Below, in pieces: positions 4,632 to 63,540 of a stretch of 64,000 bases of DNA. The notes beneath the pieces are model-generated. The model searched no databases, was not told the origin of the DNA, and saw only the letters and a list, made by a program, of their open reading frames with translations. How positions within the stretch are numbered: the first letter of the stretch is position 1; the number at the start of each line of letters is the position of its first letter. Origin of the DNA: Afipia sp. (GTDB taxonomy: Bacteria; Pseudomonadota; Alphaproteobacteria; Rhizobiales; Xanthobacteraceae); assembly GCA_030652315.1 (NCBI GenBank), contig JAUSAX010000038.1, positions 1 through 64,000 on the forward strand, in the 5' to 3' direction. The position numbers and the translations under genes were made by a program.

Positions 4632-4800
4632 GGTTAACGCCTCACGCTGTTACGCTGATTTTTTTATGATGAACAAATGATTGCGCGCCCGCGGCCGGGA
4701 GTCCAGCCACTTGCGATAACAATGAGGAGATATGGTTTCCAACGGGATGCCGCGCGCGGCAAAACGGGCCCGCAAAGATTAACAGAGCGGGCAAAAAAGA

Positions 4801-4826
4801 GCCGCCGTTTCCGGCGGCTTTTGAAA
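4801..4826 (-). terminator. Bidirectional-looking terminator hairpin
   Basis: AAAAAAGA-GCCGCC-GTTTCC-GGCGGC-TTTTG; T-rich on both strands. Confidence 0.65.
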
Positions 4827-4989
4827 GTTGATAACAGGGAGGCGTCAAACAGAGTGGACAGGAGCCACTCGGTGTCCAAACAAGGACAATCAAAGTCATA
4901 AACCCGAAAGCTTAATACGCCGTAAATGAACGATTCCCTTTACGGTTCCTTTGCAATTGCTCGGAACCCGCACTCACGATTTCCTGCGC

Positions 4990-31084: not shown

Positions 31085-31558
31085 ATGTCCATTGCTCCCA
31101 CACTCCGGCAATATCTGATTGCTGAAAACATCCAGTACGACGAGATTCCGCACGAACTCACCATGTCGTCCATGCGCACGGCTGAAGCATGCCGCGTCTC
31201 GGGCGACCGCCTCGCCAAGGGCATCGTGCTGCGGCGCGACGGCGGCTATGTGCTGGCTGTCATGCCGGCATCGCATCACCTCCACCTCTTGGAACTGAGA
31301 AAAAAACTCGGTGAAGATGTCGATATGGCCGATGAAACCGAGATCGGTCAGCTGTTTCGCGACTGCGCGCACGGTGCGGTTCCGGCCGTTGGCAAATGCT
31401 ACGGACTGGATCTGATCGTCGATGACAGCATCGAGGCGCAGCCGGAGATCTATATGGAAGCCGGCGATCACGAGACGCTGCTTCATCTCAGTGGTGCACA
31501 GTTTGCGCGGCTGACGGCCAACGCACTTCATGGGCGCTTCAGTTCACATGATGCATGA
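31085..31558 (+). CDS. YbaK/aminoacyl-tRNA deacylase (EbsC/ProX-like)
   Basis: MSSMRTAEACRVSGDRLAKGIVLRRDGGYVLAVMPASHHLHL...GAVPAVGKCYGLDLIVDDSI. Confidence 0.88.
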   Translation: MSIAPTLRQYLIAENIQYDEIPHELTMSSMRTAEACRVSGDRLAKGIVLRRDGGYVLAVMPASHHLHLLELRKKLGEDVDMADETEIGQLFRDCAHGAVPAVGKCYGLDLIVDDSIEAQPEIYMEAGDHETLLHLSGAQFARLTANALHGRFSSHDA

Positions 31559-31692
31559 CTGAGGATTTGTCGTTGTACCTGCGGCGGGCATCCGGATGCC
31601 CGGGAACAGCTCATCGCGTGCCCGGCGCCGAAGCGCCTGCGCGATCGCATGACTTGAAAATCCTGTCATAGATGTTTATGTTCCGGCCTGCG

Positions 31693-31737
31693 TACGGGAC
31701 GACCCGTATTGCTTCAGCTTTCGTCGGGGACGGCCCC
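31693..31737 (+). promoter_or_regulatory. Candidate guanidine-II (mini-ykkC) riboswitch upstream of atpB paralog
   Basis: Two perfect hairpins with ACGR tetraloops: TACGGG-ACGA-CCCGTA (31693-31708) and GGGG-ACGG-CCCC (31726-31737), 17-nt linker. Confidence 0.75.
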
Positions 31738-31858
31738 ACATCTCCTGGAGAGATGTCGGGACGGTCGCTCCGGATAGGAAGCCTTCCCCTCATCATGCTC
31801 CGTTCAGGATCGCTCCGTGCCATCGGATGCGATTGCTTTTGCATGCGACAGGGACATC

Positions 31859-32608
31859 ATGGCCGGGCCGATTGAACAGTTCGAAATCAAGCCGATTCTG
31901 CAACTCGGCGAGATCGCCGGACAGCAGATAAGCATCACCAACTCGACCGTTTACATGTTCGTGACGGTCGGCATCATCGGCTTCTTCATGCTTCTTTCGA
32001 CGCGGCGAAGCGCGCTGGTGCCGGGACGGTGGCAGTCGGCTTCGGAGATGCTGTTCGAGTTCGTCGCAAAAACAGTGCGCGAAAACGCTGGCGAAGAAGG
32101 CATGCGGTTTTTTCCGCTGGTCTTTTCGTTGTTCACCTTCATTCTGGTGGCGAACCTGCTCGGCATGCTCCCCTACGCTTTCACCGTCACGAGCCATCTC
32201 GCCGTGACCTTGGCGATGGCGATGATGGTGTTTCTGACGGTCACCATCTACGGCGTGGCCCGCAACGGTTTCGGCTTTCTGCGGCTCTTCCTGCCGTCGG
32301 GCATTCCGCCATACATCGCGGTGTTCATCGTCCCCATCGAGGTGATTTCCTATCTGTCGCGGCCTGTGAGCCATTCCGTACGTCTGTTTGCGGTGATGCT
32401 CGCGGGGCATATCACGCTGAAGGTGTTCGCGGGTTTCGTCGTCGGTCTCGGCGGCCTCGGAACACTGGGCATTCTCGGGGCAGCAATGCCGTTTCTGATG
32501 GTCCTGGCCCTGACCGCGCTGGAACTCCTGATGTCCGTCATCCAGGCCTACGTCTTCACCATGCTGACCTGCATGTATCTCAACGACGCGCTGCACCCGG
32601 GGCACTAG
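31859..32608 (+). CDS. Orphan F0F1 ATP synthase subunit a paralog
   Basis: 249 aa; 156/249 identical positions to the AtpB at 62500-63249 by ungapped hand count; [18 protein letters not shown] retains the essential Arg. Confidence 0.93.
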
Positions 32609-32636
32609 CTCCAGGCGCACTCCGTATTCAAGTCCA

Positions 32637-32692
32637 GAGGAACGACCTCCCCATTTTGGGCGCAATGACCGGGACGGCCCGGCCCAATGGAG
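32637..32692 (+). promoter_or_regulatory. Second candidate guanidine-II-like element, immediately upstream of sugE
   Basis: GAGG-AACGA-CCTC (32637-32649) and CCGGG-ACGG-CCCGG (32669-32682); linker CCATT(TT)GGG (32651-32660) complementary to CCCAATGG (32683-32690), which overlaps the SD GGAG. Confidence 0.65.
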
Positions 32693-32700
32693 ATTTGAAA

Positions 32701-33021
32701 ATGGCCTGGATCTATCTCGCAGTGGCCGGCATTCTTGAAATCGTCTGGGCCTATTCGATGAAGCAATCGGAGGGTTTCACGAAGCTCGTTCCGAGCACCA
32801 TCACCATTGTCATGATGATTGGCAGCTTCGCGTTGCTGTCCATCGCCATGAGAACACTTCCCCTCGGGACCGCCTATACCATCTGGACAGGGATCGGGGC
32901 CGTCGGCGCATTCCTTGTCGGGATCATCGTCCTCGGCGAGGCGGTGACGGTCATGCGTCTCGCGGCCGCCGCCCTGATTGTTTCCGGTCTCGTCATGATG
33001 AAACTCTCGACGTCGGCGTGA
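32701..33021 (+). CDS. sugE: SMR family exporter, SugE/Gdx (guanidinium exporter) type
   Basis: MAWIYLAVAGILEIVWAYSMKQSEGFTKLVPSTITIVMMIGSFALLSIAMRTLPLGTAYTIWTGIGAVGAFLVGIIVLGEAV matches the SugE/Gdx pattern. Confidence 0.92.
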   Translation: MAWIYLAVAGILEIVWAYSMKQSEGFTKLVPSTITIVMMIGSFALLSIAMRTLPLGTAYTIWTGIGAVGAFLVGIIVLGEAVTVMRLAAAALIVSGLVMMKLSTSA

Positions 33022-33278
33022 TTCAGGAGCGCACGCGGGCGATCGAACGCCCTTTGTGCAAGACATTCGCTCGGCGGCGGCGTGTCGCTGACACGAGATT
33101 GTCTCAGGGTCAGGCGGCCGCGGCAATGGCAAGCTCAGCAGGCAAAGGACGGTTTTGTGAGCAAATGCCGGACGCGGCTTGATGCCCCTTCGATGGCGCA
33201 ACTCTGCTCATCCCTACCAAGGGGCGCATTCGTGCTTTAAGAGTTTCATCGAGGAAACACCCATCGGAGAAACTTTGT

Positions 33279-62499: not shown

Positions 62500-63249
62500 A
62501 TGGCCGATCCGATCCATCAATTTGAGATCCAGAAGATCTTCTCGCTGGGCCACATCGGCGGTCAGGAGATCGCGTTCACCAACTCATCGGCCTACATGTT
62601 CGGCGCGGTTGCCGTCGTCTCATTGCTGATGATCGGCGGCAGCGCCGGACGCCATCTGGTCCCCACCCGTTTCCAGTCCGTCGCGGAACTGTCCTATGAA
62701 TTCGTCGGGAACACGCTGAGAGAAAGCGTCGGCGACGAAGGCATGAAGTTCTTCCCCTTCGTGTTCTCGCTGTTCATGTTCATCCTGACCGCAAACATGA
62801 TCGGCATCATTCCCTACACCTTCACCGTGACCAGCCACCTCATCGTCACGCTGGCGCTGGCGCTGATGGTGTTCCTGACCGTGCTGCTCTACGGCATTTA
62901 CAAGAACGGCTTCAAATTCTTCAAGCTGTTCGTGCCCAGTGGCATTCCGCTTTATATCCTGCCGCTCATCATGGTGATCGAGGTGATCTCGTTCCTGTCG
63001 CGGCCGGTGTCCCACTCCGTGCGTCTGTTCGCGAACATGCTGGCAGGTCACATCACCCTCAAGGTGTTTGCGGGATTCGTAACATCGCTGAGCGCGCTCG
63101 GCGCTGTGGGCATCTTCGGTTCGATATTGCCGCTGGCGATGACGACCGCGCTCACCGGCCTCGAAATTCTCGTGGCTTTCCTGCAGGCCTACGTCTTCAC
63201 CATCCTGACCTGCATCTACCTCAACGACGCACTTCATCCCGGACACTGA
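62500..63249 (+). CDS. atpB: F0F1 ATP synthase subunit a
   Basis: [23 protein letters not shown]; followed by atpE and atpF'. Confidence 0.96.
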
Positions 63250-63312: not shown

Positions 63313-63540
63313 ATGGATCCAGTTGCAGCAAAGTACATCGGCGCCGGCATCGCTTGTCTCGGCATGGGCGGCGCAGGTATCGGCGTCGGCATGATCTTCA
63401 GCCAGTTCCTCAACGGCGCGCTTCGCAACCCGTCGGCCTCGCAGGGCCAGTTCGCGAATCTGATTTTCGGCTTCGCCGTGACGGAAGCGCTCGGCATCTT
63501 CTCGCTGCTCGTCGCGCTGCTGCTGTTGTTCGCCGTCTGA
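63313..63540 (+). CDS. atpE: F0F1 ATP synthase subunit c
   Basis: [75 protein letters not shown]. Confidence 0.97.

Follow-up and report, generated by a model that had tools for sequence, protein, structure and literature searches.

The window, by which we mean the whole 64,000-nucleotide stretch of Afipia DNA analyzed here, carries the only two genes of its source genome that match PF00119, the profile of ATP synthase subunit a. One is the canonical atpB, and the other is a paralog that lies some 30 kb away from the housekeeping atp genes, in a unit in which a first guanidine-II switch, the atpB paralog, a second guanidine-II switch and a gdx gene follow one another. The features are as follows:

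31654..31682, + strand: putative sigma-70-like promoter (TTGAAA, 17 nt, TATGTT), from a consensus scan only (9/12 matches)
31691..31738, + strand: guanidine-II aptamer no. 1, 5' of the atpB paralog (RF01068; covarying and kept in relatives)
31738..31760, + strand: putative expression platform, hairpin ACATCTC-CTGGA-GAGATGT followed by GGG (fold energies)
31753..31875, + strand: possible 40-codon upstream ORF entering the atpB start, with putative translational coupling (through-ORF statistics)
31859..32608, + strand: AtpB paralog, F1Fo ATP synthase subunit a with Val179 replacing Asn (PF00119, NF004482)
32633..32682, + strand: guanidine-II aptamer no. 2, 5' of gdx (23.8 bits, below the cut-off of 32)
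32701..33021, + strand: SugE/Gdx-type SMR transporter, a guanidinium exporter by homology (PF00893, 100 bits)
62500..63249, + strand: canonical atpB with Asn at the diagnostic position, in an atpI-atpB-atpE-atpF-type cluster (PF00119, 220.8 bits)
63337..63525, + strand: ATP-synt_C domain of the c-subunit gene (PF00137, one match in the whole assembly)

The original prediction, made from the letters alone, had placed an AtpB paralog and then a SugE/Gdx-type SMR gene downstream of the first aptamer, and profile matches agree on both. The paralog is full-length and scores well above the cut-offs of NF004482 (361 bits against 225) and PF00119 (220 bits against 33.9). The SMR gene exceeds the PF00893 cut-off, and its best NCBIfam match, NF008512 (SugE), falls just under threshold (118 bits against 126); by homology, its product is predicted to be a guanidinium exporter of the Gdx type. 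Elsewhere in the window, the minus strand at 4792-4933 codes for the Alphaproteobacterial sRNA BjrC1505 (RF02356, 141.5 bits).

The guanidine-II aptamers and the atpB leader

The first aptamer is composed of the stem-loops P1 (31693-31708, TACGGG-ACGA-CCCGTA) and P2 (31726-31737, GGGG-ACGG-CCCC), the pair of perfect hairpins (loops ACGA and ACGG, linker 17 nt) that the original prediction had picked out, and their sequence is exactly as it described. It had assigned them to the guanidine-II (mini-ykkC) class and named a covariance-model search as the check. Such a search of the whole window with cmscan recovered RF01068 above threshold, at 37.4 bits against a cut-off of 32 (E = 7e-4, scaled to 64 kb x 4227 Rfam families). 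Both stem-loops have ACGR loops closed by G-C pairs, a defining feature of RF01068 that is kept in relatives, and at orthologous loci the hairpins are retained 5' of atpB paralogs in many genera. Neither of the sequence-based refutations foreseen in the original prediction, a sub-threshold covariance score and unconserved hairpins, was thus borne out. Across 63 of these loci, the third pair of P1 is G-C in 32, A-T in 20, T-A in 9 and G-T in 2, being paired in 63/63 as against 59% on shuffling. Such compensatory changes extend to P1 pairs 3, 5, 6 and 7 and P2 pair 4, all of which vary with pairing above that of the shuffles. The preservation of the hairpin pair at orthologous loci, the covariation within P1 and P2, and the near-empty controls described below together make chance a poor explanation, and on sequence evidence we regard the identification of a guanidine-II riboswitch at 31691-31738 as secure. 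In its two ACGR hairpins, stem consensus, spacing, score and nearby Gdx partner, the element is a conventional member of its class. It departs from that class in that the first gene downstream codes for an ATP synthase a-subunit paralog, whereas the reviews consulted list genes for efflux and guanidine degradation and none for ATP synthase, and in that its long-leader members place an extra hairpin and an upstream ORF between aptamer and gene.

The second aptamer, absent from the original prediction, is found between the atpB paralog and sugE/gdx, providing gdx with an aptamer of its own. Its match is weak (E 0.039 in 1.8 kb) and its sequence is conserved. As the equivalent gap scores above the cut-off in the relatives G182, G156, G252 and G200, where both switches exceed the RF01068 threshold, we take the weak match to be real. 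The order of predicted switch, atpB, predicted switch and gdx is itself conserved in relatives. The P1 of the second aptamer (32640-32653) has a 5-nt loop, GAGG-AACGA-CCTC, in 4/4 Afipia sequences, and the corresponding loop at the related locus L073 has the normal 4 nt; the Afipia stem-loop may be either decaying or tuned.

The putative promoter stops just 5' of the first aptamer. Beyond P2, the original prediction had envisaged an alternative-fold switch, in which the 3' arm of P2 would instead extend the downstream hairpin. The geometry of this proposal is valid, with the 3' CCC of P2 and the GGG at 31758-31760 being able to lengthen that hairpin, and the alternative fold (-22.4 kcal/mol) comes within 0.5 kcal/mol of the P2 fold (-22.9 kcal/mol). 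When the equivalent hairpins of ten relatives were folded, most likewise took in the final C's of P2. The pairing possibility thus stands as near-isoenergetic and recurrent, and switching between the two folds is still a prediction of the folding models.

We found no intrinsic terminator at 31540-33100, which favors a translational expression platform. The leader of the window belongs to a long type, with 121 nt from P2 to the atpB start. Among the long leaders, as thinned, an ORF runs through into the atpB start in 17/23, against a mean of 3.9 and a maximum of 9 in 300 shuffles. In short-leader members, the start codon lies about 25-30 nt past P2 and is accompanied by a purine-rich ribosome-binding site able to pair with the 3' arm of P2, as at L066. 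This layout matches the translational ON model described for the guanidine-II class (PMC12186494). We infer that control is translational, with the long leaders probably coupled to atpB via the upstream ORF. The latter part of this proposal is weak for the window's own leader, as the frame is not conserved among Afipia species; a conserved leader peptide in Afipia was likewise not supported, with indels breaking the frame between species, and it is the general through-ORF pattern that finds support across genera. Several Devosia loci (L131, L192, L169, L187, L197) possess a different small ORF of 57-59 aa between switch and atpB (from -182 to -8 relative to atpB in L131 and from -203 to -23 in L192). 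Its hydrophobic product probably forms two membrane helices, and the one representative tested had no NCBIfam match.

A distinct clade of AtpB proteins

Comparison of the paralog with canonical AtpB proteins revealed a motif, RLFA(V)ML(A/G)GH, in which the canonical proteins have Asn in place of the Val. The substitution N179V is found in 83/83 full-length proteins with the motif (hereafter Val-type) and in 0/22 canonical ones, all of which (22/22) have Asn, as do the two aligned solved structures 5dn6 and 6b2z. When E. coli residue numbers are assigned from the distances to the essential Arg and Gln, position 179 corresponds to aN214, which is in the half-channel for H+ entry, one turn beyond the essential Arg. 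Thus, of the residues expected of a subunit a, the paralog has the essential Arg (aR210) and Gln (aQ252) and lacks the Asn. Other states specific to the Val-type proteins are V225M (83/83), L228I (82/83), Pro159 and Y165 (79/83), of which the first two map beside aQ252 and the latter two next to aE196 and aS199; together with N179V, these clade-specific changes fall in both half-channels, next to where the subunit contacts the rotor. R175, Q229, H184, E161 and S164 are kept in the Val-type proteins, with R175 and Q229 conserved in at least 98% across both clades.

In phylogenetic analysis, the Val-type AtpBs form one clade against the canonical AtpBs (SH-aLRT 99, in an unrooted reading), and the grouping survives removal of the 14 diagnostic columns (SH-aLRT 96), which rejects an artefact of those residues. 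Among 395 genomes of the class, no canonical AtpB was found to have Val, the window's own paralog being the one occurrence. The tree fits a single origin of the Val-type clade, with Val not having been re-invented. Low dN/dS values of 0.06-0.10 among close orthologs point to purifying selection, and suggest that the gene is selected as a working subunit; together with the intact residues they rule out a decaying pseudogene. Thus, the paralog resembles other members of the subunit a family (NF004482/PF00119) in length, score, and catalytic and channel residues, but is set apart as the product of a stand-alone gene of a separate clade, with Val for an otherwise invariant Asn and apparently under riboswitch control.

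With what partners might such a protein act? Exactly two AtpBs, one of them canonical, were present in 30/30 genomes checked, and a single c-subunit gene in 22/22, as also in the Afipia source genome; wherever both coordinates are known, the latter adjoins the canonical atpB. No Val-type gene adjoined atpI among the loci examined and, given the single c gene beside the canonical atpB, none adjoins atpE. An alternate F1F0 ATPase (altF1/N-ATPase) was also considered as a source and rejected: the paralog scores 82 bits against a cut-off of 302 with the subunit a profile TIGR03306, and the hallmarks of an altF1 operon, namely an atpE or atpI neighbor and a second c gene, are wanting. Given the single c gene, a Val-type protein in ATP synthase must use the ordinary c-ring, and exchange of subunit a would be the simplest route. 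We give only the slenderest chance to the contrary idea that the subunit works outside the ATP synthase, for instance in a guanidinium/proton path with Gdx or another carrier. Such a role would account for the location of the gene away from other atp genes and often beside gdx, but not for the retention of c-ring-facing residues, and we know of no stand-alone transport role for subunit a.

Studies on E. coli offer a guide to what the Val could do upon such an exchange. In simulations, aN214 lies between aH245 and cD61, near aR210, and relays H+ toward cD61 (PMC11121307), and single-molecule work places aN214 and aQ252 at the protonation step of the leading cD61 (PMC8754430). The aN214V/L/Q/E mutants lose much of their ATP-coupled H+ conductance and keep growth on succinate (PMC11121307, PMC8754430). 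The paralog has the same type of substitution as the laboratory aN214V/L mutants at the equivalent site, but its Val is natural, fixed, found in a second gene and accompanied by other clade-specific changes. One could posit from the importance of this Asn to the inlet that the paralog acts as a decoy or negative regulator, displacing the normal a-subunit and turning the ATP synthase down in guanidine stress. The breakage of the simulated proton chain by nonpolar substitution (PMC11121307) and the lack of partner genes accord with this idea. Against it, the essential Arg is intact, as are other channel residues, with purifying selection acting on them, and growth of aN214V strains on succinate indicates that Val is not simply dead (PMC11121307); hence, we hold it to be improbable, and favor a replacement subunit that works.

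Phyletic distribution and gene neighborhoods

An exact degenerate-DNA scan for the Val motif in 85,488 species genomes yielded 89 stretches. They are spread over about 20 genera of Hyphomicrobiales plus Reyranella: Afipia, Tardiphaga, Brucella, Pseudochrobactrum, Ensifer, Shinella, Rhizobium, Agrobacterium, Mycoplana, Phyllobacterium, Mesorhizobium, Aminobacter, Pseudaminobacter, Nitratireductor, Aquamicrobium, Aquibium, Kaistia, Devosia and Reyranella. The distribution is nevertheless patchy, with the motif in 4/298 genomes sampled evenly across the order and 1/395 in the class, implying that most bacteria possessing guanidine-II switches do without a Val-type atpB. Spread by plasmids was examined and set aside: a single plasmid copy was found in Phyllobacterium, at 69% identity, and the other 16 matches, all below 60%, were left out. 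A record labelled Bacillus subtilis SK6B4 (L177, JAHREI010000002.1) holds a rhizobial Val-type atpB and is probably contaminated or mislabelled.

Of the Val-type loci, 75 had 310 nt or more of upstream sequence, and the leaders of 63 of these pass a strict test for tandem ACGR hairpins; 9 of the other 12 have either P2 only or both hairpins with a weaker pair, such that at least P2 is present just upstream in 72/75. The same test was passed by 0/21 canonical atpB leaders and 14/3375 random windows. A cut-off-passing RF01068 match lies directly 5' of the Val-type atpB in 19/22 genomes searched. No aptamer was recognizable 5' of the Val-type atpB at L134, L164 (Pseudochrobactrum) and L148 (Shinella), which are apparent losses of riboswitch control. 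As far as comparative genomics goes, the guanidine-II switch is thus securely associated with a distinct AtpB clade whose channel is modified.

Approaching the question from the riboswitch gave a concordant picture. RF01068 is present above cut-off in 122/300 genomes of the GTDB family, and most of the loci inspected lie 5' of gdx. Of 16 sampled loci without gdx, most precede genes for urea-carboxylase-associated-like (carboxyguanidine deaminase-type) proteins, one of them profile-confirmed. An AtpB paralog follows RF01068 at 8 loci, with gdx next in 7 of these: L048, L049 and L051 belong to the same genus as the window and L066, L073, L075 and L033 to a second, and L110, in a third, is without gdx. 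All riboswitch-linked AtpBs, 9/9 when these 8 relatives and the window are taken together, have the Val.

Across the Val-type loci as a whole, gdx is found 3' of atpB in about a third. This might be read as hitchhiking, with atpB having been inserted into a gdx operon such that the switch in front is without function for it. That each gene has its own aptamer already weakens the idea; moreover, in most long-leader loci the aptamer is followed by atpB alone, without gdx, and the association of switch and atpB spans the whole clade. Accordingly, we deem hitchhiking very unlikely.

A second recurrent neighbor is a gene for a ChaA-like cation/H+ antiporter, found just 5' of the guanidine-II switch and atpB in several Devosia (L131, L192, L210, L187, L197), Rhizobium and Agrobacterium loci (these and further occurrences include L154, L167, L171, L174, L188, L189, L190, L195 and L027); in Devosia and L027, it has a guanidine-II switch of its own. 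This linkage widens the picture to cation/proton balance, and lends the main support to an alternative in which Fo is not a guanidinium target at all. Here, the Val-type subunit, once in F1Fo, would lower ATP-driven proton pumping or leak, and thereby spare the proton motive force on which Gdx draws. Gdx is an antiporter which costs 2 H+ per guanidinium (PMC12186494), and the reduced ATP-coupled H+ conductance of aN214V/L mutants that still grow on succinate (PMC11121307) is what such management of the proton circuit would call for; the ChaA-like genes adjoin many of the long-leader loci. However, gdx is missing beside many loci, it is left unexplained why guanidine, rather than pH or the proton motive force, should be the signal, and the support is indirect. 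We consider this alternative a serious one, albeit on balance unlikely.

Guanidine and the ATP synthase

We propose that the two guanidine-II switches would govern a two-gene guanidine-response unit, switch 1 acting on the atpB paralog and switch 2 on the Gdx-type exporter. On accumulation of guanidinium, the kissing ACGR hairpins would be stabilized and the 3' arm of P2 withheld from the translation-hindering downstream hairpin, allowing the paralog subunit to be made. As it comes with no b, c or F1 genes, this subunit would take the place of the housekeeping a-subunit in the ordinary F1Fo complex. The inlet half-channel would be altered by the change of Asn to Val at aN214 and the further fixed changes, with the essential Arg, Gln and His kept. 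The benefit could be a guanidinium-tolerant ATP synthase, as the cation might, in an unaltered enzyme, pass into the aqueous inlet and compete at the carboxylate of the c-ring. The guanidine response, the subunit exchange and the tolerance are each steps that we infer, and a guanidine-induced replacement a-subunit that confers guanidinium tolerance on the ATP synthase is offered as a tentative reading, a little short of probable. The patchy distribution, the three aptamer-less loci and the 121-nt distance from P2 to atpB in the window count against guanidinium tolerance.

Guanidinium is the head group of arginine, and it is its identity with the head group of the a-subunit arginine that motivates the hypothesis of target protection. 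At the c-ring carboxylate, bedaquiline mimics the arginine of subunit a; acylguanidine amilorides are weak inhibitors (PMC8873251), and the mitochondrial ATP synthase is inhibited by biguanides (PMC4148174). We found no report in the literature of free guanidinium inhibiting bacterial Fo at physiological levels. The proposed system is comparable to drug-insensitive target duplicates, in which a second copy of the target is altered at the suspected ligand site, and is, as we propose here, induced by the ligand; it differs in that Fo as the target of guanidinium is a hypothesis of this work. Taken to its conclusion, the guanidinium-sensing RNA would swap in an a-subunit with a resistant inlet, guanidinium would inhibit Fo as an endogenous mimic of arginine, and this inhibition would be a main reason for its toxicity, a stronger claim that we find possible but rather doubtful.

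More generally, the most economical reading of the locus is a guanidine-induced refitting of the ATP synthase, whose benefit may be either guanidinium tolerance or proton-circuit control. Our best reading of the Val-type subunit is accordingly that it would keep the ATP synthase in operation, or free of leaks, during guanidinium stress. This suggests that, in the presence of guanidine, some bacteria associated with soil and plants refit their main energy machine; if true, it would be a natural case in which a small molecule prompts remodelling of the rotary ATP synthase. Bacteria possess four classes of guanidine riboswitches for reasons that are largely open, and the link between RNA and AtpB bears on this question, as its connection to a modified proton-channel subunit names a concrete candidate for what guanidine harms. 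In the literature consulted, we found no published report of a guanidine-II riboswitch paired with an ATP synthase, though an earlier gene list may mention one. The idea is testable with the E. coli atpB mutant series already in the literature, and the natural Asn-to-Val channel variant is in itself a resource for studies on the mechanism of Fo. Public annotation can conceal such paralogs under a generic subunit name: the one annotated Val-type copy examined is named plainly "F0F1 ATP synthase subunit A".
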